Virus record (IMG/VR): IMGVR_UViG_3300029977_000004
Coordinates: 1-47,312 of that record
Reading direction: 5' to 3' (one strand)
DNA length: 47,312 bases
Source of the DNA: a virus
Below the pieces are notes generated by a model. The model worked only from the letters and a program-made list of their open reading frames with translations, did no database searches and was not told the origin of the DNA. Made by a program: the position numbers and the translations under genes. This document shows positions 4,087 to 41,686 of the stretch, piece after piece; position 1 is the stretch's first letter, and each line of letters begins with the position of its first letter.

Positions 4087-4629
4087 TTACTTTAACCTAT
4101 TTGCGATTTCTTGTAAAGTTTTAAAATGTCTTTCTTCGTCCCTAATTATACCTTCGATTTTAGATCTAATCTCGGGATCGTCGGTTTTATCTAAAAGTTT
4201 ACGGTATTCAGAGATACCCTCCTCTTCTTCTTGTATAAGTTCGATAATGTCGTGTTTAAAAACGGACCGTCTTAACCATTTTGCACTAACTGACTTTTGA
4301 GGAACCATCTCGATGATAAAATATCTAAACTTTGCATTTTTGATCTCGTCTTTGGTAAATTCGCGAGCTACGTCTACTCTGAACTGAGGTACCGCAACGA
4401 ATAGTTTAATGTCGGGTGTTAAAGTAACATTTGCTCTGTTAAACGGAATTTCTTTACCAAACTTCGCACTTAATAACTTGGCAGTCGCTTCGTGACCAAC
4501 GTAACTTTCAAAATCATCTCCTAACTCACGGTTAAACGTTTCCTCGTTTACTTCTCTTATACGTAAATTTGCTTCTTCTGAGGCCGGTAACATACTAACG
4601 CTAAAAGTTGTGGTTATAACGTTTTTCAT
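4087..4629 (-). CDS. AcrIII-1-like (DUF1874) ring nuclease domain fused to a ferritin-like domain
   Basis: The product has 180 residues. Residues 1-108 match the DUF1874/STIV B116 family by pattern: FSVSML near the N-terminus, YVGHEAT at 43-49, NR at 64-65, and a following LTPDIKLFVAVPQFR strand. In viral AcrIII-1 the His of the GH motif acts in breaking cyclic tetra-adenylate, the type III CRISPR messenger; here it is H46. The acidic residue that follows the conserved Arg in those enzymes is not clearly kept (RVDVAR here). Residues 117-122 read KWLRRS, then 126-180 form two helices with EEEEG at 134-138 and DEERH at 164-168, the ExxH layout of ferritin-like or rubrerythrin-like iron-binding domains. 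The start follows a strong AAGGAG site. Domain calls are from pattern; activity is inference. Confidence 0.7.
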   Translation of the reverse strand: MKNVITTTFSVSMLPASEEANLRIREVNEETFNRELGDDFESYVGHEATAKLLSAKFGKEIPFNRANVTLTPDIKLFVAVPQFRVDVAREFTKDEIKNAKFRYFIIEMVPQKSVSAKWLRRSVFKHDIIELIQEEEEGISEYRKLLDKTDDPEIRSKIEGIIRDEERHFKTLQEIANRLK

Positions 4630-8778: not shown

Positions 8779-11133
8779 TTATTTTTCTAATGATTTCTGT
8801 GCAATTTCGATTATATCGAGTTCAGTATCTTCGTTAGAGATAAAGATTTGAGGAATTGAAGCTTCTTTTTTCACTGGTTTTTCTGGTTTCGCAGGTGTTC
8901 CCTTACCAGGTTCTGGTAACTCTATAACCGGCAATTTTTCTAAAGATTTCTCTGCGATACCTTCTGTAGCTTTCTCAATTGGTTTCACCGAGATAATATC
9001 TATTATCTGACCGATAATGTTCAATTGTGGTAAAGCAAATTTGTTCAAAAGTTCTGTTAGTTTTGTTTTTTGCTCATCTTCTAATTCGGTCATTCCTGAT
9101 ATTTTATCGATAAGGCTTTCGATAACTGCTGCCTTATCTTTCTTCTCGGTCTTTTCTTTAAGTTCTGAAAGTTCCTTTTCAGCTTTTTCACGTTTTTCTT
9201 TCTCTTCCTCTAAAGCTCTCTTCAACAACTCGATTTTTGTCTTAATTATCTGATCCTCCGAAGTCGAAGATTGAATGTTTATGGTCTGAGTTGGTTCGCC
9301 AACTCCTTTACCCGGCAATCTACCAAAATATTGTTTGATTTTAACGGAAGGACCGGTTTCAAGTTTTTCGGCGCTTTCTTTAACTTCTTCAGAACTTATA
9401 GAAACGACAGGCCCTTCTGAAGGCTTTGGTATCTTTATAGAAGGAATTTCCTCTTCGTTAAAAGACCAATCTGCTTCTTTAACAAATTTTTGATTCTCCA
9501 AATAAGCTCTTTTTGCTAAAGTAGGTAAAACTTCTTCTTTCAACTTGTCGAAAGATCCTTTAGCCATTTTTGTAACTTGTTCAATAACATCTTTAGGCTC
9601 AACGACGGTAGGATCGTCTCTTTTGATACGTTCTTGTACTGATAAAGGTATAATATCACTGGCACGTACTTTTATAGCTTTATTCCCTTCAGAGAAAATG
9701 AAATAACTGTTCTCAAAAGTGTCTCCTCTTACATATGTACCTTGCATCTTTTTACCTCCCAATGATGCTGATGTTGTTTTTTCTGGTTTCAACTTTTGAG
9801 CCTTTTCAAATAAAAACTTTTCTTTACTTTTTCGAGGCAAAATTCCGAAATCTTCAGGAACCGGAATAGACCCGATTTTTTGATCGTTTACGTATACTTC
9901 GTAAGAAGTACCTTTCAGTTTAAATACATATGGTTCTGCTATAATTCTTTCGGGATACTCCTTTAGTTTAATTTTTTCGGGAGATTCGAGTAATTTTTTA
10001 ATAGATTTGGTTTGATCAGTATCCTCGACCTTACGAGATTCTTTCTTTACAGGTCCTTGTTCGATAACTTCGGGTATAACATCTTTAGCTTCCTCTTCGA
10101 CCTTTTTAGCTTTCTCGCTTTCTTCAACTTTCGCAGTCTCTTCCTCGGCTTTAGGCGCTACTTTCTCTTCGAGCACTTCAGGAAGTTCTTTCTTCTTCTC
10201 TTCAACCTTTTCTTTGACGGTTACTTCGATCTTAGGTGAAACTGTTTCGTCGATTTTTTGTAAAATCGGATCGATAACTTTGCGCACGTGTTCATCAACA
10301 ATTTGCTTTACGCGGTTCTCTATTTTTGTCTCTATTGTCTTGTCAATAAGTTCGTCAATAGTTGTAGGCTTAGCAGGACCGGGATTTGCTTGTTTTAACA
10401 TTGCCTCTTTTACCATAGCGTATTTCCTAAGATGTTCGATTAACCTCGGATTTTGAACGTCGTAGCTGGCAAATATCTGGAATATATAGGCGGTTGGGTC
10501 GGCTGGAACGTCTACGATAGAATCTTCTATAAACGTTAAACCGCGGTTAATTTCGTAAACTCTTCTGCCGTTAATAACACGACCTTTAATATAATCGGGT
10601 GATTTTGGATTCATGTGTTTACACAAGTCCTCTGGGGATCTAGCAACGCTGCCGCAAACTGAACATATACATTCTTGGACAATCACGGACATCGAGGTCG
10701 TTCTCAACTGACCAGACATAATACGGTTTAACAAACCCGGCCGTTTTTTCTCAACCTCCTCTTTATCTATAGCGGCTAAAATTTGTACGTATTTATCGTC
10801 AGGAAATTTGTGATAGACGGCGTCTAAAATAATACCGAAAGCTTTGTCGGGACTGTCCGAATCGTGGTTATAATAAACGCCTTTGCCGATAAAAGTATGG
10901 TAAGATTTTTCGATCTCAGCGTCTTCAAAGAAATCTCCGTTGTAATTTGACACGTCTGCAGTAATAGCTCTTGCGCGGTAGTATAGAAAATGCTCGGGAT
11001 CCCACTCGAACTCAAAGCTGTTGTAAGGTAAAGTACCCGCTCTTACAAAATTATGCCAACTATGTTTCAAAGATTCAATTTGATTTCCGGTGTAAAAGCT
11101 TCCTATCGCTGTTGCTCTCTTTATGAACGCCAT
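8779..11133 (-). CDS. Prohead protease fused to scaffold-like region
   Basis: The product has 784 residues. Residues 48-235 look like a phage head-maturation protease: ARAITADVSNYNGDFF, an NHDSDSPDKAFG stretch, RTTSMSVIV and a late FIEDSIVDVPADPTAY. A Cys cluster (CICSVCG, then LCKHMN) near 155-178 could bind zinc. Residues 260-380 and 640-700 are highly charged coiled coil (EEKEKREKAEKELSELKEK), as in scaffolds. Several KxA sites (VKEAMLKQAN, FVKEADW, VKKEAS) may be self-cleavage points. The ribosome site is weak, and the start overlaps the preceding zinc-protein frame by 59 bases, implying coupling. Protease-scaffold fusions are known in tailed phages. The catalytic residues are not assigned with certainty. 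Confidence 0.7.
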   Translation of the reverse strand: MAFIKRATAIGSFYTGNQIESLKHSWHNFVRAGTLPYNSFEFEWDPEHFLYYRARAITADVSNYNGDFFEDAEIEKSYHTFIGKGVYYNHDSDSPDKAFGIILDAVYHKFPDDKYVQILAAIDKEEVEKKRPGLLNRIMSGQLRTTSMSVIVQECICSVCGSVARSPEDLCKHMNPKSPDYIKGRVINGRRVYEINRGLTFIEDSIVDVPADPTAYIFQIFASYDVQNPRLIEHLRKYAMVKEAMLKQANPGPAKPTTIDELIDKTIETKIENRVKQIVDEHVRKVIDPILQKIDETVSPKIEVTVKEKVEEKKKELPEVLEEKVAPKAEEETAKVEESEKAKKVEEEAKDVIPEVIEQGPVKKESRKVEDTDQTKSIKKLLESPEKIKLKEYPERIIAEPYVFKLKGTSYEVYVNDQKIGSIPVPEDFGILPRKSKEKFLFEKAQKLKPEKTTSASLGGKKMQGTYVRGDTFENSYFIFSEGNKAIKVRASDIIPLSVQERIKRDDPTVVEPKDVIEQVTKMAKGSFDKLKEEVLPTLAKRAYLENQKFVKEADWSFNEEEIPSIKIPKPSEGPVVSISSEEVKESAEKLETGPSVKIKQYFGRLPGKGVGEPTQTINIQSSTSEDQIIKTKIELLKRALEEEKEKREKAEKELSELKEKTEKKDKAAVIESLIDKISGMTELEDEQKTKLTELLNKFALPQLNIIGQIIDIISVKPIEKATEGIAEKSLEKLPVIELPEPGKGTPAKPEKPVKKEASIPQIFISNEDTELDIIEIAQKSLEK

Positions 11134-11618: not shown

Positions 11619-13375
11619 TATTTAGCTTCTGTACCCGGACTTGGTTTAGTTTCGGCCGGGATCTCGGGTTTCGTTTCAGATTTCTCAACACCGACCGGTT
11701 TAGTTTCGGTACCTTTCTCGAGAGGTTCTGCTCTCGGAGGTATAGCCATCTTACCGGTCGGAGTAGGAATATATGGCGGAGCTTTCAATTCTTCCAATAT
11801 CGATGGTCTTCCTGGTTTCGTGACGCGCTCACCTTCTTCCGCGCCTTTCTTAACAGCTTCGGGAACAGGTACTCCTTTGATAACTTCGTTTAGAACGCCC
11901 TTGTCTTTAGCTTTTTCTCTAATCGCTTCCCTATAAACCGGATCGAATACTGTAGATTGTTCTTTCTCAAGATCTTTCTTAACCTGGTCATAATCGAGGT
12001 TAAATACTTCACATATAAGTTTGAACGGTACTTCTTGTTTATCACGAAGTCTCATTAACAACTCGCGTTCAGCTTGTTCGTTGAGTAAATTACGTTGTTT
12101 CCATTTAAAGACAGGAAGAATTAAATTACCGTCTTTATCTTTGTATCCTCTGGCAACAGCTATCGGTCTAAAGACTTTGTTAAGAACAACATTTTCAACT
12201 CTCTTTCTAAAAGCGAGGTATCGCATCATAACGAGACGAGTACTAACCGTAGCTGATGCGTATGGAGAAACTGATCCTTTCAGAAATTCGTCGCTCGCCA
12301 TCAAACCGACTAAAATACGTTTGTAAACAAATTCTAACAAGTTAATCGGATTTTCGAATTTACCGACCGGCGTTGGAAAATCGATATTTACAAACGGATG
12401 AGTAACAATAGTAAATGAAGGATCGCTTTGAGCTTGCATTAATAATCGTCTGATTTCTTCGATTTGTTTTTTACTCGGAATTATACCTTTACCGGCGTCA
12501 CCAACTTTTACTAACTTAATCGGAAACATGCTTGTATCTATATACGTAAATAACAATAATAATAACTTTTCCTCGAGTAACAAATATTTTAGGACGCGGG
12601 TTACTAAAGAACTGCCTCTCGCTATATACGCGGCCGGTCTTCTTGACAAAACTATTAAGTTGGCATTATTTAAAATGTACGGTTTACCTTTGAGTATTGC
12701 TTCTTTGAGATCGTCCGGTATCAGCTGCGCTATAGCTCGATCTGTAGCTTTGGAGGAAGTCAAGATCCTTCTCAACTCTTCATCTGGTTTTAAAGCGTAT
12801 ACGACGCCGGGTCCGACGTACGTTTTAAACACTTCGATATTTTCGGGAGGATATTGTACGAAACTTTTCCAGGTTAATTCGGTATCATCCCAATCGCCAT
12901 ACCCTATCGCCTCACCGATCAAAAAATAATCGCGACCTAACTGCATCAAAAACTCATGTAAAGAGACACGTTCTTTGAAATCATTGTATTCCTTTTCTAT
13001 TACTGGGTCTGGACAGCTTAATTCAAAATCGCACAAACTGAATTCGACGTGAGTATCAATAACAGATCCTACGATAGGGTGGTAGTTATAATAATGACGA
13101 AGACGACGGTTCAGTTCACGAATATTTTCCTTCGGGAATAATACAAGGACAGGGTCAAATAAAGGGTCAATGTAGGTTAAAGGAAGGCGCATCGTATCAG
13201 ACCCGGTTCCCCAAACATCTCCGGCCGCGGCTTTCTTCTCGAAAGAAGCTTTCTTAAGGAGAGTGGCGTCTTTTATAGTTTCGCCGTCAGGAACAAAGTT
13301 AATATGAACGCCGGCTGAAGATGGCAACTTTTTCTTTCCTTCAGATTGATTTTCAGGTACGTTTTTCTCAGTCAT
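11618..13375 (-). CDS. Portal protein
   Basis: The product has 585 residues and follows an AGGAGG site. It has the usual portal pattern: an N-terminal region that runs into RRLRHYYNYHPIVGSVIDTH, a helical stretch (LHEFLMQLGRDYFLIGEAI), the wing with WKSFVQYPPENIEVF, then a long stem helix (LLLEEKLLLLLF), and a C-terminal crown-like region rich in Glu, Pro and Lys. Size and position next to the terminase and protease genes agree. The N-terminal segment LLKKASFEKKAAAGD has candidate processing sites of the KxA type also seen in the capsid and protease proteins. The C-terminal 90 residues are low complexity. Confidence 0.85.
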   Translation of the reverse strand: MTEKNVPENQSEGKKKLPSSAGVHINFVPDGETIKDATLLKKASFEKKAAAGDVWGTGSDTMRLPLTYIDPLFDPVLVLFPKENIRELNRRLRHYYNYHPIVGSVIDTHVEFSLCDFELSCPDPVIEKEYNDFKERVSLHEFLMQLGRDYFLIGEAIGYGDWDDTELTWKSFVQYPPENIEVFKTYVGPGVVYALKPDEELRRILTSSKATDRAIAQLIPDDLKEAILKGKPYILNNANLIVLSRRPAAYIARGSSLVTRVLKYLLLEEKLLLLLFTYIDTSMFPIKLVKVGDAGKGIIPSKKQIEEIRRLLMQAQSDPSFTIVTHPFVNIDFPTPVGKFENPINLLEFVYKRILVGLMASDEFLKGSVSPYASATVSTRLVMMRYLAFRKRVENVVLNKVFRPIAVARGYKDKDGNLILPVFKWKQRNLLNEQAERELLMRLRDKQEVPFKLICEVFNLDYDQVKKDLEKEQSTVFDPVYREAIREKAKDKGVLNEVIKGVPVPEAVKKGAEEGERVTKPGRPSILEELKAPPYIPTPTGKMAIPPRAEPLEKGTETKPVGVEKSETKPEIPAETKPSPGTEAK

Positions 13376-13391
13376 GTTCGCCTCCTATTCA

Positions 13392-14495
13392 TTACACATT
13401 AAAATACTGGTTTAAACCTTCTAAGTTTAAACCATATAGTTTACCGTCCTCGCCTTTAAAAGTACCTCTTGTTTCCAATGTGTTATCTTCAGGGTTATGT
13501 ACAAATATCGTTAACCCTTTCTTAGAAATTCCGTCTCTAGTAAAAACAAGTACAACTGCAAAATAAGCTGGTACTTCGAACGTTGTTTTAGAAATTTCGA
13601 CACCTTCAACGGATGGTTGCGCCTCAAAGACTTCGCCTTTTTGTGATCTATACATTAGATCTTTTACTTGAACAGTATAACCGGGAATATTTAAAGATTC
13701 GACATAATCAAAAATAGTTCTGACTGCGTCTACAACGTTCGGAGCAACTTCTTCAGTAGATTCTTCAAAAAATTCGGCGGGTGTTTTCTCGTCTACAAAT
13801 TCTTCTTTTTCGGTCAGTTCGGTAACTACGTCTTTACTAGGTTGCTTTGTGTCTTGATTTTGAGCCGTTTTTATGCCCATCGGCATATCTTCCGGCGAAT
13901 GAATGTTCTTACGAGATATTAAGTCTTTTTCCGTTAAAATACGATCAAACGTGTACAACTTTTTGACCTTACCTTCAAGTTCTTTTAAAGCAGATTCTAA
14001 TGTGTAATGTTCACTAACAATTTCGCGGTCGACACCTTTTTGACCAAAGATACAATATTTATCAATCCATGGCATTATGAAATAATACTCGTACTTACTA
14101 TCCTTAGATTCGCCCCATCCGTAATTTATACCGGGAATTGTTGGAGGTGTATCTAGATACGGCTGCGCATCTAAATAAATGTCTGGTTCAACTCCAGTCA
14201 GTTTTTTGAAAACCCTACGAATTTTGTTTAAATTATACCCGAGACTGACTAGAAAGTTTTCGATGTATTTATAACTGTACTTACCTTCGGCGATAAGATC
14301 GCGCATGTTTTGTTCGAGTTCTAACATTTCTTGCTGAGTAGAAGAACCACTATAAGGTACTTTTTGAAGAATACGAGAAATGTCCCAAGTAAAACCACTT
14401 TCTTTCTTAATATGTTGTTTTAAGGCGGGATCGCTTTCGTAATCAAAATAAATGTCGTCTTCTCCTAAGTCGGTCCATTTTAACGGTTTTGTCAT
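13392..14495 (-). CDS. Unknown head-region protein
   Basis: The product has 367 residues from ATG at 14495, which has GGAGGTG upstream. A TTG at 14516 gives a longer frame but lies within the ribosome-site spacing of the ATG and is rejected. The first 120 residues are acidic and helical (LEQNMRDLIAEGKYSYKYIENFL). The middle has an aromatic beta region (YEYYFIMPWIDKYCIFG), and the C-terminal 110 residues look like a separate alpha/beta domain (VEISKTTFEVPAYFAVVLVF). An IKTAQ site near residue 205 resembles the KxA sites of the head proteins. The function is unknown. Confidence 0.65.
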   Translation of the reverse strand: MTKPLKWTDLGEDDIYFDYESDPALKQHIKKESGFTWDISRILQKVPYSGSSTQQEMLELEQNMRDLIAEGKYSYKYIENFLVSLGYNLNKIRRVFKKLTGVEPDIYLDAQPYLDTPPTIPGINYGWGESKDSKYEYYFIMPWIDKYCIFGQKGVDREIVSEHYTLESALKELEGKVKKLYTFDRILTEKDLISRKNIHSPEDMPMGIKTAQNQDTKQPSKDVVTELTEKEEFVDEKTPAEFFEESTEEVAPNVVDAVRTIFDYVESLNIPGYTVQVKDLMYRSQKGEVFEAQPSVEGVEISKTTFEVPAYFAVVLVFTRDGISKKGLTIFVHNPEDNTLETRGTFKGEDGKLYGLNLEGLNQYFNV

Positions 14496-20000: not shown

Positions 20001-20834
20001 TTATAACAGTAATAATAATTGGTCGTTATCGATAAAACTTTTGACCGTAGATATAACTTTGTCATGAACATCTTTATAACTTATATTGAGATTGTAATTC
20101 TTTATGAGAACTTCCCAATTTATCTCGGTATCGTACTTAACCGGATCTACTAAACCAGCTTGAGCAAAAGCTAAAATACGTTCTTGACTAGTTGGATTTG
20201 AACTGTCCGCAATTCTATTTTCTTCGTCTACAACTGCGTAAGATGACCATGTCTTCGAGTAATCGACGCCTAAACCAGTACCGAGTACAACAATCTCGCC
20301 TTTCTTAAGGTTAATAAAAGGAGCGATGACTTTTATCTTGTTTCTACGGTTAAGTTCTGTAACATTGTTAATAGCTTCGACATATTCTGGAGTACAATCC
20401 CAGTAACCGTAAATATCACGTTGTTGAGCACCATAATAAACGACGTCACATTTGTTAGCTTCGGCGTAAGCTAAACAGATACTTAACAAAATGGTATTCC
20501 TAAAAGGTACGTATGTAATAGGTTGATCTTCGTTACCCTTGATCTCTTCTAAAGTAGGTACCTTTACATCGTTGCTAACTAGAGCGGTGCTTTTACCAAG
20601 CAAGTCTTTCATAAAAGAAATATCGACTACCTTATGATCGTAAACTTTTACACCGATCGATTCACCGATTTTCTTAAGTTCGTTTACTTGATACTTAGCC
20701 ATCTCTAGCTCTATCTTGTGTTTCTGACCGTAGTAAAATGATATCGGATATATATCGTTCTTGAGAACTTTAACGACAAAATGTGCTAAAGTTGTTGAAT
20801 CTAAACCGCCTGATATTGAGACTACTGCTTTCAT
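20001..20834 (-). CDS. queC: QueC, preQ0 synthase lacking its zinc-binding cysteines
   Basis: The product has 277 residues. The ATP pyrophosphatase P-loop is intact (SGGLDST at 8-14), as are the family motifs YYGQKH and YVPFRNT at 108-114. QueC turns 7-carboxy-7-deazaguanine into preQ0. Normal QueC binds zinc with a Cys in TWSCY and three in CxxCxxCxxR. Here these read TWSSY (195-199) and DSSNPTSQER (210-219), so all four Cys positions are Ser, Asp or Asn. The flanking family motif AFAQAGLVDP is kept, so the alignment is firm. The start follows AAAAGGAGGT. Either this form folds without zinc or its function has shifted. Confidence 0.85.
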   Translation of the reverse strand: MKAVVSISGGLDSTTLAHFVVKVLKNDIYPISFYYGQKHKIELEMAKYQVNELKKIGESIGVKVYDHKVVDISFMKDLLGKSTALVSNDVKVPTLEEIKGNEDQPITYVPFRNTILLSICLAYAEANKCDVVYYGAQQRDIYGYWDCTPEYVEAINNVTELNRRNKIKVIAPFINLKKGEIVVLGTGLGVDYSKTWSSYAVVDEENRIADSSNPTSQERILAFAQAGLVDPVKYDTEINWEVLIKNYNLNISYKDVHDKVISTVKSFIDNDQLLLLL

Positions 20835-20901: not shown

Positions 20902-21150
20902 TCATCCTTTGATGATATACCGGATCAACATTGTAATGAGAGCGACAATGCTCAAAATAAAAAACATGTAACCGATTATTATCGATATAAATCCGGGTAT
21001 AACCATATACGCTTTCGAATTAAGAATATTACCGTTTTTATCGATGTTGTTTGCGCCGGTTACGACCAAAAATAATCCGAAACAATATAACCCGATAGAA
21101 ATTAACAGCCATAACCACCAACGCGTTACTACAAATATTATTACGCTCAT
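20902..21150 (-). CDS. Small membrane protein with two spans
   Basis: The product has 82 residues with two hydrophobic spans, about 3-28 (WWLWLLISIGLYCFGLFLVV) and 48-76 (VIPGFISIIIGYMFFILSIV), joined by a polar loop. It should sit in the cytoplasmic membrane. The ATG overlaps the preceding stop (ATGA) and has AAAGGAGA upstream. It could be a holin-like, superinfection-exclusion or host-takeover protein; the sequence does not say which. The 66 bases to queC hold only that gene's ribosome site. Confidence 0.6.
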   Translation of the reverse strand: MSVIIFVVTRWWLWLLISIGLYCFGLFLVVTGANNIDKNGNILNSKAYMVIPGFISIIIGYMFFILSIVALITMLIRYIIKG

Positions 21151-21452
21151 CTTTTGTTTCTCCTTTCTAGTTCTTTTTCGATTTCTTTCTTTAAAAACTT
21201 TAAAAATTCTGTTCTTTGGTTCTTGAAAAACTCTTTAAAGAATATAAGATCGTTTCTGATAATTTTCTCGCCAACAACTTCTTTCATCCTGACAGCTTGC
21301 ATTAAAACCCAACCTACAAGGTCAACTAATTCTTCTTCCCATTCGCGAGACATGTCGTTCAACAAATACGCGTCTTTGTATTTTTGACTACTTTTCTCGA
21401 CTTTTTCAACGACTTTTTGTAGTAAATCTTTGAAAATTTTCTTGTTGTACAT
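21147..21452 (-). CDS. Small helical protein, weakly MazG-like
   Basis: The product has 101 residues from ATG at 21452, with AAGGAGG upstream. A longer frame from 21485 is rejected. The middle (SREWEEELVDLVGWVLMQAVRM) has the acidic helix pattern EExxD of MazG-like nucleotide pyrophosphohydrolases, but the second acidic pair is not clear. The C-terminus is very basic and helical. If the weak likeness is real it would act on nucleotides, which fits the base-modification genes around it. Otherwise the function is unknown. Confidence 0.5.
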   Translation of the reverse strand: MYNKKIFKDLLQKVVEKVEKSSQKYKDAYLLNDMSREWEEELVDLVGWVLMQAVRMKEVVGEKIIRNDLIFFKEFFKNQRTEFLKFLKKEIEKELERRNKR

Positions 21453-21627
21453 AAGTTTCCTCCTTGTCGCGAATTTTCCAACCAAATAAAAGTTTAGCGA
21501 TAACTTTTTGGAGTTTATTGTACTTGCGAGGACTGTATAGTTTAAACCCGTCGATATACATCACTGATTTGATATTATCGCCGAAGTATCTACCTATAGG
21601 AAATTTCTGAACGATTCTTCTTTTCAT
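21406..21627 (-). CDS. Small basic protein of unknown function
   Basis: The product has 73 residues from ATG at 21627, preceded by AAGGAGG. A longer frame from 21678 overlaps folE2 and is rejected. The protein is basic with many Tyr and Phe (MYIDGFKLYSPRKYNKLQKV). Its end overlaps the next gene by 47 bases. No domain is recognised. It lies directly after folE2 in the base-modification cluster. Confidence 0.55.
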   Translation of the reverse strand: MKRRIVQKFPIGRYFGDNIKSVMYIDGFKLYSPRKYNKLQKVIAKLLFGWKIRDKEETYVQQENFQRFTTKSR

Positions 21628-21637
21628 AAACGCCTCC

Positions 21638-22507
21638 TTATACAAAACCGTGTTCGCTTCGATACCATTTACTGCCACGTTTGACTCTTCCGATATAAGC
21701 GATAGCGTTGTGTTTGTGTATAGATTCGAAACTCTCTACTTTGACACGGAACCACTTTACATGCTTCAGCTTTATAACTTTATCGGCGATTCGACGAGCA
21801 AGACCTTCTACAAAAACAGGATTGTCGTACGCGTGTTCCGTAACGTATTTTTCATCAGGTCTCTTAAGAATAACGTAAACGGGAGAGCTGGCGGACTTCT
21901 CAACAATATTTATTAATGTTTCAAAATATACCCCTGGTAACTTGTCGACTTCTACTTGTAAAGTAACCTCGGCACGTTGGTTATGAGCGCCTTTACCTAT
22001 TTGTTTTTCGTGATCAATCATACAAAGTGACCTTGAACACGGACATACTGTTTGAACAGGTACCTTAACTTGAACAAAATATCTAAAAGGGGGATATATG
22101 ATTGATACGGCACTATCATACAACATGATGGCTTTCTTTCGTGTCACGGGAGATACAGACATCTTCGCAAAAGGAAATTCTAGCTTCAAATAAATATCTT
22201 TAAGCTTAAGCCTACGATACAATCTTTTAGCAATTCCTTTAAAAGAACTAACAGTCAGAAACTTACCTACATGTTCGAACAAAACCTCAGGTAACCTTGA
22301 CATGTCAACTCCTTTACGAATTTTGGGTAACCGAGCGTAAGCATCTACTTTAGCAATAACATGACGAATACCGACAACATCGTTTGTACCGGGTTTATAA
22401 ATTATCGATATGGGTACTTCTAGGTTAGTAATACCGGCTTTATCAACGTCCATCTTTATAATATCAGGTAAATGTTGTTCATCTACTAAACCCTTTTGAT
22501 CTTTCAT
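21638..22507 (-). CDS. folE2: GTP cyclohydrolase FolE2-type (first step to 7-deazaguanine)
   Basis: The product has 289 residues and shows the FolE2 (COG1469) landmarks: an N-terminal DVDKAGI-type strand, VCPCS followed by LC near 155-167, KGAHNQRAEV near 180, and SFESIHKHNAIAYI near the C-terminus. These enzymes turn GTP into dihydroneopterin triphosphate, the entry to folate and 7-deazaguanine synthesis. With queC, queE and the DpdA-like gene nearby, the likely role is DNA base modification. The start follows GAAGGAGG and overlaps the polymerase gene by 29 bases. Length is close to bacterial FolE2. Confidence 0.88.
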   Translation of the reverse strand: MKDQKGLVDEQHLPDIIKMDVDKAGITNLEVPISIIYKPGTNDVVGIRHVIAKVDAYARLPKIRKGVDMSRLPEVLFEHVGKFLTVSSFKGIAKRLYRRLKLKDIYLKLEFPFAKMSVSPVTRKKAIMLYDSAVSIIYPPFRYFVQVKVPVQTVCPCSRSLCMIDHEKQIGKGAHNQRAEVTLQVEVDKLPGVYFETLINIVEKSASSPVYVILKRPDEKYVTEHAYDNPVFVEGLARRIADKVIKLKHVKWFRVKVESFESIHKHNAIAYIGRVKRGSKWYRSEHGFV

Positions 22508-24884
22508 ACTCCGCAGCCTCCTTCAATTTTTCCCTAAGTTGGGAAGGATCTGTTATCTGAACACATGATCCTAAACGGTAACCTACTTCGCAATCAAAAG
22601 GAATATCGGTAAAAAACCCTTTTATCCTTGCTCCTAAAATACGAAACATAATTTGTAAAATCTCTTCCCCCTTATCTTCGGGTATCTCGTACGTTAACGA
22701 ATCGTGTACAGTAAGAACGAGACAGCAACCTAAATGTTTGGTCTGTTCATAAACTAGAGACCCTTTATACATTGTGTAATCCGCTACAGTACTTTGTGGT
22801 AAAAAGTTAAGGGCTTGTCGTTCCTCGGCAGATCTTACCTCGAAGTCAGATGAGTTAATACCTGGGAATCGTCTGACCCGGCCAAAAAAATTCTGTAAAT
22901 AACCCTGCTGTCTCGCCAGCTCAACAACTTCTTTATAAAATTGTTTTGATTTCGGAAAACTGTTAAAAAACGAATCTATAATTTTCTGAGCTTCTTCAAC
23001 AGGCATCTTATGCTCTTCAGCTATAGATTTTGCGCGTCTTCCATACAGTAGTCCGTAAACAACAAATTTAGCGAGTCTTCGCCTTTCGTCGTCGACCTCT
23101 TCAATCGGAATCTTGAAAACTAATGACGCAATAGTCTTTAGGGGATCGAATCCGCTTTCGAATGCCTCTCTGAGTTTATCATCTTTAGCGTAGTGACAAA
23201 AAGCTCGTAATTCGGCTTGTTTAAAATCGATATGGGCAAAAAAGTAACCGTTTTCAGCAATAAATATATCTTGCACTTCTTCCTCTCGAGGAATATTCTG
23301 AAGGTTCGGATTACGTGAGCTAAGTCTACCTGTGCGTGTCCCTGTCAACGAATAATCAGTATGTAATCTGTTGTTACTGTCGCATAATTCGATAAAGTTA
23401 ACAAAATACGTACTCAACAATTTCTTCTTTTTACGATAATCCAATATAAGATTTACAATAGAGTGATAATTCCTCAAATTTTCGAGAGTAAAAGTGTCGG
23501 TAGCCGGATTACCTTTTTCAGTTTTGTAAATAACGGGTAATTTGAGTTTTTGGTATAATATACGAGATAAATCTCTTGTAGAATTGATGTTAAAAGTTTC
23601 GCCGGCTTCTTCGTAAACCCGTTTTTCTATATCTACAAGATCTTGATTGAATTTATCGGTCAGTCTTTTCACATAATCAATATCTACTTTGATGCCTTTA
23701 ACGCGGGTATCTACTAACATGTATATAGTAGGTATGTTTAGTTTTAAATGTAGTTTTTCAAGATTGTCAGGTAATAATTCGATAAGTTTTTGGTACAGAA
23801 GATAAGTTGCGTGAGCGTCAGCACAATTATATTTGAGAACAATTGTAGTATCGACACCGCCAGGACGATCTTCGTCGGCTAACGCCGTATAATCGCTTTC
23901 GTAACCACCTTTACCAAGATATTTCCATACGATACTCTTTAAACCGTACCTTTGAGCATTTTCATCTAACAAGTAAGCCATAACAAGAGTATCCCCGCAC
24001 AAATTTTTACATTCCACACCTAGCTCCTTCTTGAGAAAAGTTAAATCGAATAGCGCGTTATGAAAAACTTTGGCAGATTCGTTTGCAAATACTTCCTTCA
24101 ACTTATTAACAATCGCGTTAAGATCTTGATCTGACCAATACATCGAACCGTCAGGTTTCCTGAACGGAAAACCGAATGTTAGATCGCCCGAAGAAAAAGC
24201 TATCGTGAAAATTACGGAATCGAAAGTAATATCTGACGTTTCAATATCGCAACACCATAAAGGTTTCGTGTTTAATAAGTCGAGGTGTTTCAAAATTTCG
24301 TCTTTATCGAAAAGTAATTTATATTCTTCGAAGGACCAGTCGTAAGGATCCTTATCTAACCAGTTTACGACTTTCTCTAACGTCTGCTCAACAATTTTTA
24401 TCTTGGACGGATCTCTTAAAAGAGCTGCCGGATGATAAGTAGGTATATAAATTCGACCATTTTGTTTAAAAGGTACTCCTTCTGAATTTTGTAAATTATA
24501 CCGGGTGCCTAAGAACTTTTTAATAGCGGTGTTACCGAGCAACAGAACTAATTTGGCTTTGACTTTATCGAGTTCACGGTTAAGACGAGCTTCGCAACAT
24601 TTGATCGCGTCTGACGAAGGAGAAACGTTGTTACCTTTATCATCAGTGGGTCTACAAGCTACAACATTCGTAATAAAACATTCGTCCCTATTGATACCTG
24701 CTTTACTTAACAGACCGTCTAATAATTGACCAGATCTTCCTACAAACGGCATACCTTGCTTTTCTTCTTGTTCTCCGGGCGCTTCTCCAACAATTATCAA
24801 TTTTGCGTTATAAGGTCCGTGTCCAAATACAGGTTTCTTACCTTTTAACGGACATTTTTGGCAGATGATATTGATCTCTTCCAT
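22479..24884 (-). CDS. Family A DNA polymerase fused to N-terminal uracil-DNA-glycosylase-like domain
   Basis: The product has 801 residues. Residues 1-170 match family 4 uracil-DNA glycosylases: CQKC at 8-11, VGEAPGEQEE, MPFVGRSGQLLD, two further Cys groups (VVACRP and KCCEARL) that may complete an iron-sulphur cluster, and IPTYHPAALL. Residues 205-390 have 3'-5' exonuclease motifs (WCCDIETSD, VFHNALFDL, YNCADAHA). Residues 400-801 are family A polymerase: TGTGRLSSRNPNLQNIP-like motif A region, DFKQAELR, RRLAKFVVYGLLYG (motif B) and LTVHDSL (motif C). Phage SPO1 polymerase has a related N-terminal domain. This is the replicative polymerase. The start follows AAAGGAGA. Confidence 0.92.
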   Translation of the reverse strand: MEEINIICQKCPLKGKKPVFGHGPYNAKLIIVGEAPGEQEEKQGMPFVGRSGQLLDGLLSKAGINRDECFITNVVACRPTDDKGNNVSPSSDAIKCCEARLNRELDKVKAKLVLLLGNTAIKKFLGTRYNLQNSEGVPFKQNGRIYIPTYHPAALLRDPSKIKIVEQTLEKVVNWLDKDPYDWSFEEYKLLFDKDEILKHLDLLNTKPLWCCDIETSDITFDSVIFTIAFSSGDLTFGFPFRKPDGSMYWSDQDLNAIVNKLKEVFANESAKVFHNALFDLTFLKKELGVECKNLCGDTLVMAYLLDENAQRYGLKSIVWKYLGKGGYESDYTALADEDRPGGVDTTIVLKYNCADAHATYLLYQKLIELLPDNLEKLHLKLNIPTIYMLVDTRVKGIKVDIDYVKRLTDKFNQDLVDIEKRVYEEAGETFNINSTRDLSRILYQKLKLPVIYKTEKGNPATDTFTLENLRNYHSIVNLILDYRKKKKLLSTYFVNFIELCDSNNRLHTDYSLTGTRTGRLSSRNPNLQNIPREEEVQDIFIAENGYFFAHIDFKQAELRAFCHYAKDDKLREAFESGFDPLKTIASLVFKIPIEEVDDERRRLAKFVVYGLLYGRRAKSIAEEHKMPVEEAQKIIDSFFNSFPKSKQFYKEVVELARQQGYLQNFFGRVRRFPGINSSDFEVRSAEERQALNFLPQSTVADYTMYKGSLVYEQTKHLGCCLVLTVHDSLTYEIPEDKGEEILQIMFRILGARIKGFFTDIPFDCEVGYRLGSCVQITDPSQLREKLKEAAEYERSKGFSR

Positions 24885-35912: not shown

Positions 35913-36755
35913 TTATACAATCTTAGAAGCTTGTTCTAATCCGTGGTAAATACCTTGTCTAATCTTTGAAGGATCAAATTCTAAAGAATCCGATATTTCG
36001 TACTCGGGTTCTATCACTTTTATGTCAATCTTTTTGTAATCTTTGTAAGAACCGAAAGTATCTATAAGATCGTTAATTGTTAACGCCGTTTCTATATCGT
36101 TAATGTAAATTTCGTTCAAAAGGATATCGAGAACGCGCATAAGCACTTCTATAATATTACTGTATCTTTTATACATAGTATTAGGATGTCTCGGAGAACA
36201 TAGTATAACGTAAATCGTATCTGCTCCGAGATCGATAGCTTTCTTCAACGGTATAATATCTCTGACACCACCATCAACCCATTGCTGGTTGGATTTATCA
36301 ACTGTCGTAAAGAATACTGGAATAGTACATGAAGCCAACACATCATCCGCGGTCATATCTTGTTTGTTGACGTAAACGATATTACCGGTCTGTAACGATA
36401 CTTTACCTGCGTAAAAATCGATGGGAGATTTTAGTAATTTATCTTTGGCAAAGAATTTGTTAAGTATCCTCCGGAGACCGTCAAATTCGTAAATACCGTT
36501 TCGTAAGCCCAACAAACATTTTGTATAATTTACAATACTTTTTGTATAAATGTCTGAATCTTTCTTAATATTAAGCCAGATCTCATGTAAAAGATCGATG
36601 TCTTGTTGAGCAACAGCAAGACCTTGTAAAGATCCTGTAGATATGCCTATAACTATATCGGGTGTTATATTCTTAACCTTACATAACCAAATAAGAGCGC
36701 CTACTTGGAAGGCTCCTTTAGCACCGCCACCTGACAGTACAAACGCTGTTTTCAT
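35913..36755 (-). CDS. Patatin-like phospholipase
   Basis: The product has 280 residues from ATG at 36755, which has AGGGAAAG upstream and overlaps the previous stop as ATGA. It begins MKTAFVLSGGGAKGAFQVGAL, with the patatin oxyanion-hole motif GGGAKG, then GISTGS with the nucleophile Ser (GxSxG), and WVDGGV holding the Asp of the dyad. All catalytic parts are intact. It should release fatty acids from lipids at the membrane. In phages such an enzyme might help lysis or alter membranes for takeover or exclusion; which is unknown. Confidence 0.85.
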   Translation of the reverse strand: MKTAFVLSGGGAKGAFQVGALIWLCKVKNITPDIVIGISTGSLQGLAVAQQDIDLLHEIWLNIKKDSDIYTKSIVNYTKCLLGLRNGIYEFDGLRRILNKFFAKDKLLKSPIDFYAGKVSLQTGNIVYVNKQDMTADDVLASCTIPVFFTTVDKSNQQWVDGGVRDIIPLKKAIDLGADTIYVILCSPRHPNTMYKRYSNIIEVLMRVLDILLNEIYINDIETALTINDLIDTFGSYKDYKKIDIKVIEPEYEISDSLEFDPSKIRQGIYHGLEQASKIV

Positions 36756-37417
36756 ACTTTCCCTATAGTAACCCTTGGCGTACAAAATTCTTTTACTTCA
36801 CAATAGTTACATAGTTCTGAAGGTTCAGGTTCTGGTAAAATTCCTTTGTTAATAGCGTTATTTAGTACTTCTAAACGCTCGTGTATGTTTACAGGATCTT
36901 CTTCTACATAAACAACGCTAAATTTTTTGTTAGTAAGAACGATGGCTAATTTTTCGACGGGTAAATCTAACATTTGTTTATAAATGTTAAGTTGACGTCT
37001 ATACCAAGGTTTAACCGACGAACTCGTCTTAAAATCGTATATAGTTTTTGTCTTATAACTGTACAAATCTAACGTACCCGTTAACAGAAAATCACCGAAC
37101 TTTTTCTCCATCTTATATTCAGATAAATATCCCTGTTTAGTTTTAAAATACTCTGATAATCCTTTATGTATAAGAGTACCGTTAACAGCGGCTACGATCG
37201 TATTTATATCTACGAAATAGTCTTTAGTAAACTGTAAAGCTGATCGTCTTAAACAACATGTTATTTGGGAAACCGAAAATTGAGGATGTTCTTCGTAATA
37301 ACGAATTTGGCCGGTAAAATAAACGTCTACGACGAATGACGGAACGCATCTTGTAGCGCATTCTAAACAATCCTTTAACGATACTTTGCCTTGGGAACAG
37401 TTGACTCCTTTAAGCAT
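36752..37417 (-). CDS. Cas4/RecB-like PD-(D/E)XK nuclease with Cys cluster
   Basis: The product has 221 residues. The nuclease core reads GTLIHKGLSEYF, LTGTLDLYSY, TIYDFKTSS and QLNIYKQML, matching the motifs of Cas4 and RecB-family nucleases. C-terminal LCNYCEVKEFC and N-terminal Cys residues could hold an iron-sulphur cluster. N-terminal CLECATRC adds further Cys. It would trim DNA ends. I choose ATG at 37417, about 10 bases after GGTGGG; a GTG at 37432 is possible. No CRISPR array is nearby, so a recombination role is more likely than adaptation. Confidence 0.75.
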   Translation of the reverse strand: MLKGVNCSQGKVSLKDCLECATRCVPSFVVDVYFTGQIRYYEEHPQFSVSQITCCLRRSALQFTKDYFVDINTIVAAVNGTLIHKGLSEYFKTKQGYLSEYKMEKKFGDFLLTGTLDLYSYKTKTIYDFKTSSSVKPWYRRQLNIYKQMLDLPVEKLAIVLTNKKFSVVYVEEDPVNIHERLEVLNNAINKGILPEPEPSELCNYCEVKEFCTPRVTIGKV

Positions 37418-37481: not shown

Positions 37482-40400
37482 CTAATTTTTGATTAACCAT
37501 AATGCGGATGTTTTCAAGTAAGATGAAATACCTAACTCTTTAGCGTAATCTTTGATTCGTTCAATCATTTCCTCTTTTGTTATATTTGGTTCGCTAAGTC
37601 TTATTTCCTCAACAAATTTTAAAATTTTACCTACCCACGGCCCAGGTGGTAAATTAAACAATCCAAGAATTTCGTCTCCCGTTATGAACCTGGGTTCAAA
37701 AGCTTTTTGATATCTCTCTTTTTGTTCTTTTACCCGTCTTTTCAAATCTTCGAGGTTTTCTAATGATTGTTGAACATATTCACTCTCTGACGACATAACA
37801 TCGATTGTAGCAAATTCTAAAATTTTTTCCAATAAATCTCCCATTTTTGATATAAACCGTCTAATCGCGGCATCGCTCCATTCTTTGGTATATGTGTGTG
37901 GTACCATATGTAAAGAAATCCTTTTTACCACTTCTTCAATAATGTGATTAGGAAATTTTAACCTTTTAAGAATTTCACGAGCTTGTTCACTACTTAAATT
38001 CTCGTGGCCTATAAATCTTGCAACGTTATCTATAATAACTTTCGTTGCTGGTTTTGAGATATCGTGAAGAAGAGCAACAAGCCGGTCTACTAAATCGGCA
38101 TTTGATTTCTCGACAGCATTAAGAATATGAGTCCATACATCCTCTCTGTGATAAGGAGAATCGTGAGAAACGCCGTAAGTTTGAGATAACTCGGGTAAAA
38201 ACTTATCTAGCAAACCTGTTTCTCGTAACAACTCGAAAGCTCTTTTTGGGTTAGGTCCTTCGAGTATTTTTATGAGTTCATCTCTGATCCTCTCAGTTGA
38301 AACAATATCCAACCGGTCCACGTTCTTCTTAATCGCTTCTAACGTTATAGGATCGATATCCATACCGAATTTTACTGCTTGACGTATTGCTCGTAACATC
38401 CTTAACGGATCTTCGAGAAACACAATCTCAGGGTTGTCTGTTGTAGTCCGGATTATACCGTTCTTGATGTCTGTCAAACCCTTACCAGTAGGATCAATGA
38501 TATCAAATGTTTCCAAGTCAAGATATAACGAGTTAATTGTAAAATCTCTTCGGTAAACGTCTTCGTCTAAAGATCCGTAGCTAACAACTGGTTTCCTACT
38601 ATCTGGATCGATGTAAGCTTCTTTCCTAGGAATAATAACATCAACGTTAACACCGTCTATGTTAACTTTACCGGTACCAAACTCTTCAAAGAGAACATAA
38701 TCTTTTAAATCGTATTCTTCTACTAAATGTTTTATGAAATTTGATGTTGCGGACATTCCTTCATCATCTTTTACCACAACTATATCTAGGTCAGATGATG
38801 GTTTTCCCATAACATAGTCACGGACAAATCCACCTGCCGCATATACTTTATATCCGTACTTTTTTGCTACTTTTACAATTTTGTCAATGATCGATTGTAT
38901 CTCAGGACTAATTGGACCTGATTGCTTCAACCACTTTCTTCTTATAGATAAACTACTTTGTTTTTCAAACTCTCCTCGATAACCTTCCCATTTCTTGGCT
39001 GATTCTTGTATTTCAAACGGTATTTTTGATTTGTCGAAGTTTAAATATTCGGAAAATTTGTATGAACATTTAGAATCTGTTGATATACTTTGTATTAATT
39101 CGTTAGGTATTTCTTTACCTAATCTAAGTAGTTTTATAGCAATGCCGTATGAATAATAAGGATCTTTTGACATACCTTGTATTATTTCATTCAGTATATC
39201 TTTACCATATTCAAGCAGTTCTATAGCAAACCGGTATGAACGCCAAGAATCTTTTGATATACTTTGTATTATTTCATTTGGTATTTCTTTATTACGTTCA
39301 AGTAGTTCTATAGCAAAATAGTATGAATATTTAGAATCTTTTGATATACTTTGTATTATTTCATTAGGTATAAAGTTCAGTACTTTGGCGACATTTAAAG
39401 CAATTTTAGGATTTGTTATAGCTTCTTGCCAAATATGTTCTTTAATATCTTCCAAACCTAATTTGTTAGCCGCTATAAACGCGTCCCCCACGAACTCTTG
39501 ATCTAACAGTCTTTCTACAACTTCTCTTATCTCATCTTCTTTACCTTTCCTAAATTGTTTGTTATAAGTTAGAACGAATAGTCTACCTCGATCAGATAAG
39601 GTGTCGTACTCCTTGGCAAAATACTCTGCAAGATGAACTCTATCACGATCACTCATCATATCGGGAGGTATTGATACGGATAAATTCTCTTTAACGAATT
39701 CCATAAACTGTTTGTATCCTATACCTATCTCTTCAAATATTTTCAACAACTCTTGTTCAGGAAATAACAACTTATCGAACGGGTCTCTGATTTCGCCGCC
39801 ATGAGATGCTACAGCGTACGGATATTTGTTTTTGAGAATTACATACAACGGCCCTACTCTCAAATAATCTTTGGCATATTCAAGACTGTATCCGTACTTC
39901 TCTGATCCTGATACGCATACTTCTGTTATATTAAGTAAAGAACAAGTGTCTTGCATAACTTTAGCATCGGTTATCTTTATGATTGTATAAGGAGGTTTAT
40001 CGTAAATAATTTCGGCTCCGGCTGGTAATTTTGACGGATCTGTTAAAGGTTTTAATTGTTTAGGCTCAAACTTGGCTATTATAGGTTGCATAAATTCTAA
40101 GAATTGGTCTACGGTCTTGAACCGGTCTATGTTTTTACCTTCTTCTGGTATGTCTTTTGTCTTCTTAAGTCTATTATGTAACGCTAAAGCTTGTTCTAGT
40201 TTATGTCTTAACGTATCATTCTCCAATATACCAGGTTTATTTTGCTTTCTCAGGTCACGGTCTATTTTAGCTATCCATTTGGTATATTCGGCGTTATTAC
40301 CGGTAGGGTCTAGTTTGTTTAGTTTCCTTACTCGTTCTTCGTCTATACCCATTTGTAAAATATATGGTAGTTTACTTTCTAGATCTGCCGTCTTTAACCA

Positions 40401-40781
40401 TTTATCTCTCGCACTACTTTCTACCTTAAAACTTTGTTCGATTCTGCTCATCAAATCTTGCGGGTCTACTTTCAAAGCGTAATCTGTTGCTGTTTCGTAA
40501 TCACCTGTTGTTCTAACAAAATCCCAGAATTTGTCTACAACATTGGACCAGTGTAAATGAGACTCTAAAGTACGAATAAGGTTTCTCAAATTCTCTTTGC
40601 CAATAACGAATGTAATATAAGGCTCTGCGTGCTCAAATTTTTCAATTAACTCTTTGTAAGGAAACTTTCTGGTTTTCGACAAATACCCTAGTTGTTTAAG
40701 GAAAGGTATAGCATGTTGCAAAAACAACTCTACTTTCTTTCGGTCTATTTTACTCGATCTTTTTAACCATTTATTAATCAT
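37482..40781 (-). CDS. Large multi-domain protein ending in tRNA-nucleotidyltransferase-like and HD domains
   Basis: The product has 1099 residues from ATG at 40781 (ATGA overlap). It begins MINKWLKRSS; KWLK recurs near 127 and 617. Residues 250-350 resemble a domain of phage polyvalent proteins (YLRVGPLYVILKNKYPY, GGEIRDPFD). Residues 473-588 are four 29-residue repeats beginning NEIIQSIS. From about 645 it is a class II nucleotidyltransferase: AAGGFVRD, SSDLDIVV, RRDFTINS, FLEDPLRMLRAIRQ, TERIRDEL, then an HD domain (HREDVWTHI, LLHDISKP). This half resembles CCA-adding enzymes and poly(A) polymerases. Such fusions may enter the cell with the DNA. The substrate is inferred from family. Confidence 0.8.
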   Translation of the reverse strand: MINKWLKRSSKIDRKKVELFLQHAIPFLKQLGYLSKTRKFPYKELIEKFEHAEPYITFVIGKENLRNLIRTLESHLHWSNVVDKFWDFVRTTGDYETATDYALKVDPQDLMSRIEQSFKVESSARDKWLKTADLESKLPYILQMGIDEERVRKLNKLDPTGNNAEYTKWIAKIDRDLRKQNKPGILENDTLRHKLEQALALHNRLKKTKDIPEEGKNIDRFKTVDQFLEFMQPIIAKFEPKQLKPLTDPSKLPAGAEIIYDKPPYTIIKITDAKVMQDTCSLLNITEVCVSGSEKYGYSLEYAKDYLRVGPLYVILKNKYPYAVASHGGEIRDPFDKLLFPEQELLKIFEEIGIGYKQFMEFVKENLSVSIPPDMMSDRDRVHLAEYFAKEYDTLSDRGRLFVLTYNKQFRKGKEDEIREVVERLLDQEFVGDAFIAANKLGLEDIKEHIWQEAITNPKIALNVAKVLNFIPNEIIQSISKDSKYSYYFAIELLERNKEIPNEIIQSISKDSWRSYRFAIELLEYGKDILNEIIQGMSKDPYYSYGIAIKLLRLGKEIPNELIQSISTDSKCSYKFSEYLNFDKSKIPFEIQESAKKWEGYRGEFEKQSSLSIRRKWLKQSGPISPEIQSIIDKIVKVAKKYGYKVYAAGGFVRDYVMGKPSSDLDIVVVKDDEGMSATSNFIKHLVEEYDLKDYVLFEEFGTGKVNIDGVNVDVIIPRKEAYIDPDSRKPVVSYGSLDEDVYRRDFTINSLYLDLETFDIIDPTGKGLTDIKNGIIRTTTDNPEIVFLEDPLRMLRAIRQAVKFGMDIDPITLEAIKKNVDRLDIVSTERIRDELIKILEGPNPKRAFELLRETGLLDKFLPELSQTYGVSHDSPYHREDVWTHILNAVEKSNADLVDRLVALLHDISKPATKVIIDNVARFIGHENLSSEQAREILKRLKFPNHIIEEVVKRISLHMVPHTYTKEWSDAAIRRFISKMGDLLEKILEFATIDVMSSESEYVQQSLENLEDLKRRVKEQKERYQKAFEPRFITGDEILGLFNLPPGPWVGKILKFVEEIRLSEPNITKEEMIERIKDYAKELGISSYLKTSALWLIKN
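39018..39365 (-). repeat. Four tandem 87-base repeats inside the large protein gene
   Basis: Four units of exactly 29 codons follow one another. Each begins with NE[IL]IQ, contains SKD or STD and a paired aromatic (SYYF, SYRF, SYGI, SYKF), and ends near KEIP or KDIL. The predicted form is a helix-turn-helix solenoid. Two related units occur in the small protein encoded at 41743-42225 (RLIQEASKDPAKSYLLAQ and KLIRGISKSPYYSYYF). Base identity between units is high, so expansion is recent. Confidence 0.85.
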
Positions 40782-41686
40782 AACAGCCATTTAGACTTGC
40801 TACCGAATCTTTTCTCGATCTTACTTTCAAAATAACTTTTTATGGTGTTATAAACACGCGAATATAAAGTTGGGAAAGTTTTACCTAACTCTCTCTGAGC
40901 TGTTTCGTTAAGTTGTTGCGCGGTATCTTCGGCTATCTGATCTGCTATTTCGTATAACTGTTTTTTGATAGCTGACTCGGACAAAGTTACATCGAAAACT
41001 AGTTCGTTATATTTCTTTTCGAAAAGACGATCTGCTTTGTCTACTAAATCTTCTATCTCTTTCGTTAGTACGCTGGGTCCAAAAATATTTTGTATCGTGT
41101 CTATAACGTCTTGTTTAACCATTGCTTCTACGTAAAAAGATTTTTTCTTTACGTGTTTAAGAAGCTCGTCGAGAGCATCTTCTTTCTGTTCGAGTTTTTT
41201 CTTGACAACTTCTTCCGTGAGAAAACCTAAAGCTTCGTCGATTTTTCGTTTACGTTTGATCTCTTCGGGGGTTTGTCGTTGAGGTAAAGCAACACTTTTA
41301 GCGTACCATTCTAAATACTTTTTGAACGTATTTTTAACTTTATCTCTATCTTCTTTTGTCCATTGACCAGATACCCATTTTATACCGCTCATATACGTAT
41401 TCGCGGCAGAAAACGCTACTTTATCAATTATACCTGACACGTCAGTACTTGTACTTGTCTTTTCGTATTTCTCTTTAAACTGTTTCTCTAACCATCCCGC
41501 TATATTCTTTCCTTCCGCGTCGGGTATACTAACGTTTCGGTACCATTTAAGAATATCCCTTAACTCGTTAACCATTTCGTTAATCTTTTGTAACCGCTCG
41601 TTTTCTATCGATTGAGTCTGTTCTTCGGATTTCTTCTGCTCTTTTTCGCCTTCTGTTTGAGCTGCTCTTAACCATTTATTTCTCAC
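40778..41686 (-). CDS. Helical protein of unknown function beginning with the KWLR motif
   Basis: The product has 302 residues from GTG at 41686, which has AAGGAGG at perfect spacing. A longer frame from ATG at 41746 has no comparable site. It begins (M)RNKWLRAAQ and ends SKSKWLL, so the motif sits at both ends. Most is charged helix (KKKLEQKEDALDELLKHVKKK, then ETAQRELGKTF). The stop overlaps the start of the large protein (ATGA). No catalytic motif is seen. Its relation to the large protein (shared KWL motif, shared upstream sequence) suggests a common role, perhaps as virion-packaged or injected proteins. Confidence 0.65.
   Translation of the reverse strand: MRNKWLRAAQTEGEKEQKKSEEQTQSIENERLQKINEMVNELRDILKWYRNVSIPDAEGKNIAGWLEKQFKEKYEKTSTSTDVSGIIDKVAFSAANTYMSGIKWVSGQWTKEDRDKVKNTFKKYLEWYAKSVALPQRQTPEEIKRKRKIDEALGFLTEEVVKKKLEQKEDALDELLKHVKKKSFYVEAMVKQDVIDTIQNIFGPSVLTKEIEDLVDKADRLFEKKYNELVFDVTLSESAIKKQLYEIADQIAEDTAQQLNETAQRELGKTFPTLYSRVYNTIKSYFESKIEKRFGSKSKWLL

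Follow-up and report, generated by a model that had tools for sequence, protein, structure and literature searches.

By definition, QueC is a zinc enzyme with the motif C(x)8CxxCxxC, and its zinc is described as required (PMC13329287); zinc-free canonical members are not described in the main text of that paper. The window, that is the whole stretch of 47,312 nucleotides (47.3 kb) of an IMG/VR virus contig analyzed here, encodes a single QueC from which the four cysteines of this motif are missing. The question raised by this locus is whether such a protein is still a preQ0 synthase and, if so, what stands in for the metal. The open reading frame matches Pfam QueC (PF06508) with an E-value of 3.4e-49 and scores 143.9 bits against TIGR00364, slightly below the 150.3 cut-off of that model. 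A megablast of the window against phage records returned zero matches. The gene, its motifs and the pathway genes are located in Table 1.

Table 1. Features of the queC locus and of the pathway genes in the window.
Feature	Position	Strand	Remarks
queC (7-cyano-7-deazaguanine synthase family), zinc site absent	20001..20834	minus	277 aa, ATG to stop
SGGLDS ATP pyrophosphatase loop, residues 8-13	20796..20813	minus	SGG-DS invariant in 82 aligned QueCs
TWSSY, residues 195-199	20238..20252	minus	Ser198 in place of the first zinc Cys; Tyr199 kept, the counterpart of essential E. coli Y189 (PMC13329287)
DSSNPTSQER, residues 210-219	20178..20207	minus	Former CxxCxxCxxR; three Cys gone, Arg219 kept
C-terminal tail past Arg219, 58 residues	20004..20177	minus	Modelled helices 240-247 and 253-267
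Short DpdA-like DNA transglycosylase, 245 aa	19252..19989	minus	Downstream of queC by 11 bases; NCBIfam DpdA at 2e-7 falls short of the model cut-off
Conserved 112-aa ORF between folE2 and queC	21147..21485	minus	In all five relatives and L039; no Pfam match over cut-off
FolE2, GTP cyclohydrolase IB, first pathway step	21638..22507	minus	Pfam GCHY-1 2.6e-66
QueE-like radical SAM enzyme, 222 aa	30796..31464	minus	PHROG 2076 QueE-like 1.7e-36; NCBIfam QueE 5e-18

The initial annotation had read the usual TWSCY and CxxCxxCxxR as replaced by TWSSY and DSSNPTSQER, and both the translation and an alignment with gp124 of Vibrio phage KVP40 bear this out. In that alignment, SLTCYDPNEAGESCGKCPSCAERI of gp124 is paired with TWSSYAVVDEENRIADSSNPTSQERI of the window protein, placing the first Cys at S198, the second at D210/S211, the third at N213 or in a two-residue gap and the fourth at S216, with a register that is uncertain by 1-2 residues at the second and third. 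The C(x)8CxxCxxC motif is absent, with zero Cys in residues 195-219. The three cysteines that the protein does have are at 120, 129 and 147, the last being part of the kept YWDC. Relocated Cys ligands were also considered and ruled out, as the loop has gained neither Cys nor His; the annotation had named other cysteines placed at the site as a finding that would count against it, and none are seen there. The P-loop, YVPFRN (residues 108-113) and AFAQAGLVDP (222-231), described as kept, were all found in the translation. The signature YxQxHxxE, VPxRN, YxDC and TxxY reads YGQKHKIE, VPFRN, YWDC (where the canonical form is YPDC) and TWSSY, in columns that are invariant or nearly so.

The same loop is present in five IMG/VR relatives that are 80-97% identical to window QueC. 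dN/dS was 0.024-0.045 between window QueC and four of the five relatives (residues 1-240) and 0.06 between two relatives, with one relative (L004, a near-copy of L003) left out and dS saturated in one comparison. Within the 40-residue loop there were 0-5 nonsynonymous differences per comparison, amino-acid change being as rare there as in the whole protein. Window QueC and its relatives are under purifying selection, and sequencing error or decay as the source of the Cys loss is ruled out by the five relatives together with the dN/dS values.

For a wider view, 291 comparable QueC sequences were assembled from scans of viral and cellular collections and from annotated phages. Cysteine counts in the zinc region were 4-5 in 195 of these homologues, 0-1 in 96 and 2-3 in none, proportions that come from a query-biased sample and do not equal population frequencies. 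These bimodal counts, the loop shared by the five relatives and a dN/dS of 0.02-0.06 support the earlier proposal that the metal site was lost as a whole rather than by random decay. Three parts make up the zinc-free set: the window clade, a virus of 89.7 kb (L016), and a large marine group (group M), one member of which comes from the isolated Flavobacterium phage immuto. Serine occupies the first Cys position in all 95 zinc-free sequences counted, the positions once taken by Cys repeatedly carry Ser, Asp or Asn in both zinc-free groups, and each of the eight zinc-free records checked (8/8) has one QueC. No zinc-free QueC was found in cellular genomes among 80 sampled loci picked by similarity to the query. 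All four cysteines are kept in the QueCs of CAjan, CPt10, CC_R7, KVP40, pf16, Sonali, Finch, TA17A, phi38:2 and HCTV-1. The annotation had conceded that phage QueCs of proven activity with the same substitutions would make the case unremarkable; in CAjan, CPt10, KVP40 (for nt-1), TA17A (for Rosebush) and HCTV-1 (for HVTV-1), which either have measured 7-deazaguanines themselves or are closely related to phages that do, QueC has four cysteines.

In a QueC tree built without the zinc columns, the window group and group M fall in different supported clades, the former with KVP40-type and other four-Cys viral QueCs (95/97) and the latter on the side of Sonali and TA17A. One ancestral zinc-free clade is rejected by the AU test (p 1.4e-40), therefore at least two losses are required, and judging by this tree the zinc site of viral QueCs has been lost at least twice. 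The suggestion of a zinc-free QueC class is supported as regards the class, but not as a single clade, since the site was lost separately in the window group and in the marine group (AU p 1e-40). The window clade and L016 as one clade were not rejected (p 0.55). A four-Cys branch, L202, lies inside group M in the tree, and a group M without it was not rejected (p 0.44). L202-L214 are all four-Cys QueCs, and the position of their representative L202 within zinc-free group M may be a regain or a misplacement. The four-Cys sequence nearest to window QueC by path, L090, is 50% identical to it. Its contig carries what we take, from reading its open reading frames, to be cellular-type genes such as biotin carboxylase.

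Outside the metal site, the columns invariant in 82 aligned QueCs are S8, G9, G10, D12, S13, Y35, Q37, R112, N113, D140, D146, K178, Y199, R219 and D230 (window numbering), and Y144 is nearly invariant. Four E. coli residues that are essential by mutation, Y35, R99, Y131 and Y189 (PMC13329287), correspond to window Y35, R112, Y144 and Y199. Among the positions more than 85% conserved in four-Cys QueCs, only the four cysteines and one adjacent Gly are changed in the zinc-free sequences (291 homologues). An AlphaFold model of window QueC has a mean pLDDT of 91, with about 94 in the former zinc loop and short strands at 201-203 and 208-209; a group M QueC (L195) was modelled with a pLDDT of 94. 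The window model superposes on 2pg3 with Z 21.4 (203 residues, rmsd 2.4), as expected for a QueC fold, and on 3bl5, Cap9 and QatC with Z 20.4, 19.4 and 17.2. The zinc-free window QueC is thus predicted to be ordered and to have the canonical QueC fold. It shares with canonical QueC (E. coli and B. subtilis 3bl5; cluster 1 of PMC13329287) the fold (Z 20-21), SGGxDS, YxQxHxxE, VPxRN, YxDC, the TxxY Tyr, the Lys and the pathway neighbors, and differs from it in the absence of C(x)8CxxCxxC and in a longer C-terminal tail. The tail after the site is 57-64 residues in the window clade, 58 in L016 and 37-50 in group M, against medians of 25 in viral and 19 in cellular four-Cys QueCs, although five four-Cys QueCs also have long tails, so that a long tail is not strictly tied to the loss of zinc. 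The longer tail may make up for the absent zinc. In QatC the fold is described as being completed by the four-Cys zinc site (PMC13279940). This is consistent with a structural role of zinc, and such a role is probable in QueC.

The gene stands in a run of one direction, polA (with a UDG domain)-folE2-orf112-orf82-queC-dpdA-primase, in which all members but orf82, seen among the relatives only in L002, are conserved in the five relatives. The polymerase (22479-24884, minus strand) is of family A with an N-terminal uracil-DNA glycosylase domain, and a similar protein adjoins the 7-deazaguanine genes of L015. The DpdA-like protein is 27-31% identical to the 'DNA guanine transglycosylase' of immuto and to Campylobacter phage CPt10 and CP220 proteins. 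It has no CxCxxC site, but this feature is not special since CAjan DpdA also lacks it. L015 has two adjoining open reading frames (11971-13448; 246 and 268 aa), the first matching window DpdA by tblastn and the second resembling, by eye, a paralogue of the first. Virus-encoded FolE2 had tblastn matches in only 3 of 50,697 phage records. Neither the window nor any of its five relatives (records that may be fragments) yielded a QueD, and the virus-encoded pathway is incomplete unless the host supplies this step. QueF was not found in the window. No class II GATase was found in the window or the five relatives, again possible fragments, using tblastn with four phage/viral GATases and a scan for N-terminal Cys; a PF13522 search was too weak, missing the GATase-like open reading frame of L016. 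No CD-NTase or QatABD partner genes were seen among the part of the window open reading frames scanned against Pfam.

Other zinc-free loci have fuller gene sets. In the stored flanks of group M, QueD was found in 71/89 loci, QueE in 68/89, DpdA in 67/89, FolE in 61/89, QueF in 9/89 and GATase in 0/89, where the DpdA counts are from tblastn (NCBIfam DpdA was unmatched in immuto and other records searched). A GATase lies near 53 of 115 viral four-Cys QueCs versus 0/89 in group M and 0/5 in the window clade; these locus counts ignore relatedness and the flank lengths differ. Like the window protein, the QueC of Flavobacterium phage vB_FspM_immuto (MW353177, immuto136C_28) has none of the four cysteines, and the phage has a full preQ0 pathway with DpdA (FolE, QueD, QueE). 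It differs in belonging to the separate group M, in its motif SDYKSASSVER and shorter tail, and in the additional presence of QueF and a formyltransferase-like gene. KVP40 gp124 and pf16 gp78 belong to the same broad clade as window QueC (35-39% identity) but have the four cysteines, and their genes are followed by a class II GATase-like open reading frame of a kind undetected in the window. Such a frame (8842-9477) also follows the zinc-free QueC of L016, and a second frame in L016 (6991-7566) shows weak similarity (29%) to the first over its residues 64-194, with no N-terminal Cys.

We propose, with a probability of about 0.72, that window QueC is a functional preQ0 synthase whose structural zinc site gave way to a protein-only scaffold. 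The basis is the loss in sequence, the selection, the independent origins, the otherwise intact signature, the gene context and the predicted fold; activity without metal and preQ0 as the product are what we infer from them. The enzyme would convert 7-carboxy-7-deazaguanine, ATP and ammonia to preQ0, and the DpdA-like enzyme encoded beside queC would place this base in the viral DNA. The four-Cys site, which closes the C-terminal lobe in QueC, Cap9 and QatC, would have been replaced by a remodelled, ordered loop with Ser, Asp and Asn for cysteines, together with the extra stretch at the C-terminus. Unchanged are the ATP loop and the residues for the substrate, among them the essential Tyr next to the first of the lost cysteines, and the replacement would have evolved at least two times in viruses. 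The DNA of the window virus would most likely carry dPreQ0, or dADG, with the QueD step coming from the host.

The initial annotation had offered a different 7-deazaguanine side chain as another possibility, which gained no support: the conserved substrate and ATP residues are all kept, and zinc-free QueCs lie in ordinary preQ0/DpdA gene sets, some of which include QueF, a preQ0 consumer. It is unlikely that QueC halts after the first half-reaction and releases the amide ADG, giving dADG in viral DNA, even though ADG is an intermediate of the QueC reaction (PMC13329287), the window DpdA-like protein has relatives in CPt10 and CP220, phages whose DNA is reported to contain dADG (PMC8306585), and the window has no QueF and no detected GATase. 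The QueCs of CPt10 and CC_R7 have all four cysteines, therefore dADG does not track zinc loss; QueF, which needs preQ0, occurs in immuto as well as in the nine group M loci, and the catalytic positions are all unchanged. Zinc loss as the cause of dADG is ruled out by the four-Cys QueC of the dADG phage CPt10. Still less probable is a new job, either protein deazaguanylation like that of Cap9 and QatC or direct archaeosine synthesis with a GATase partner. The QueC family has been repurposed at least twice (PMC13329287) and L016 has its GATase-like neighbor, but Cap9 (of type IV CBASS) and QatC, which share the fold, keep the Cys site (PMC13329287, PMC13279940), have a protein-modifying role and sit in different operons, the GATase counts run the other way, and the neighbors of zinc-free QueCs are preQ0/DpdA genes.

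The host could supply preQ0 while the viral QueC does something else. That the protein is an inactive remnant in a virus dependent on host preQ0 is very improbable: QueD is absent and all four zinc ligands are gone, but the dN/dS of 0.02-0.06, the intact invariant residues and the repeated survival in many viruses with full pathways speak against it. We give just as little credence to a loop that still holds metal through non-Cys ligands; the recurrent Ser, Asp and Asn would favor this, yet His and Cys are missing from the window loop and no more than one Asp stands at the positions in question, so that typical zinc ligands are absent. A functional, zinc-free preQ0 synthase remains our preferred reading. 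A doubtful extension of it is that the window virus group has a zinc-independent 7-deazaguanine pathway (FolE2 for FolE, zinc-free QueC, a short DpdA without CxCxxC and no QueD) selected by zinc avoidance during infection. FolE2 is a GTP cyclohydrolase without a need for zinc (PMC7873864). Pathway-wide zinc avoidance as a general rule is ruled out by the zinc-type FolE (CSHH motif) kept in immuto and L016, so that the window group is the only one to which it could apply.

The zinc that has long counted as a hallmark of QueC seems from these sequences to be dispensable. With natural forms in two or more viral lineages that have none of the site, the role of zinc can be tested directly and told apart from that of the essential neighboring Tyr. 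Zinc-free QueCs are also candidate enzymes for making modified DNA bases, and Cys-based rules for functional QueC would overlook a large set of viral enzymes.

Several other features of these records were seen. In the window, a minus-strand gene at 37482-40790 encodes a protein of 1102 aa in which about 640 residues with no Pfam match over the cut-off precede a CCA-adding/poly(A) polymerase module (649-1073). On the same strand, 4087-4629 encodes a STIV B116-like domain, known from an archaeal virus, with a weak rubrerythrin-like C-terminus, and 35913-36785 a patatin-like phospholipase, here on a virus contig. A ribonucleotide reductase-like open reading frame in L016 (11390-14587) contains an apparent intein, recognized by reading the sequence.
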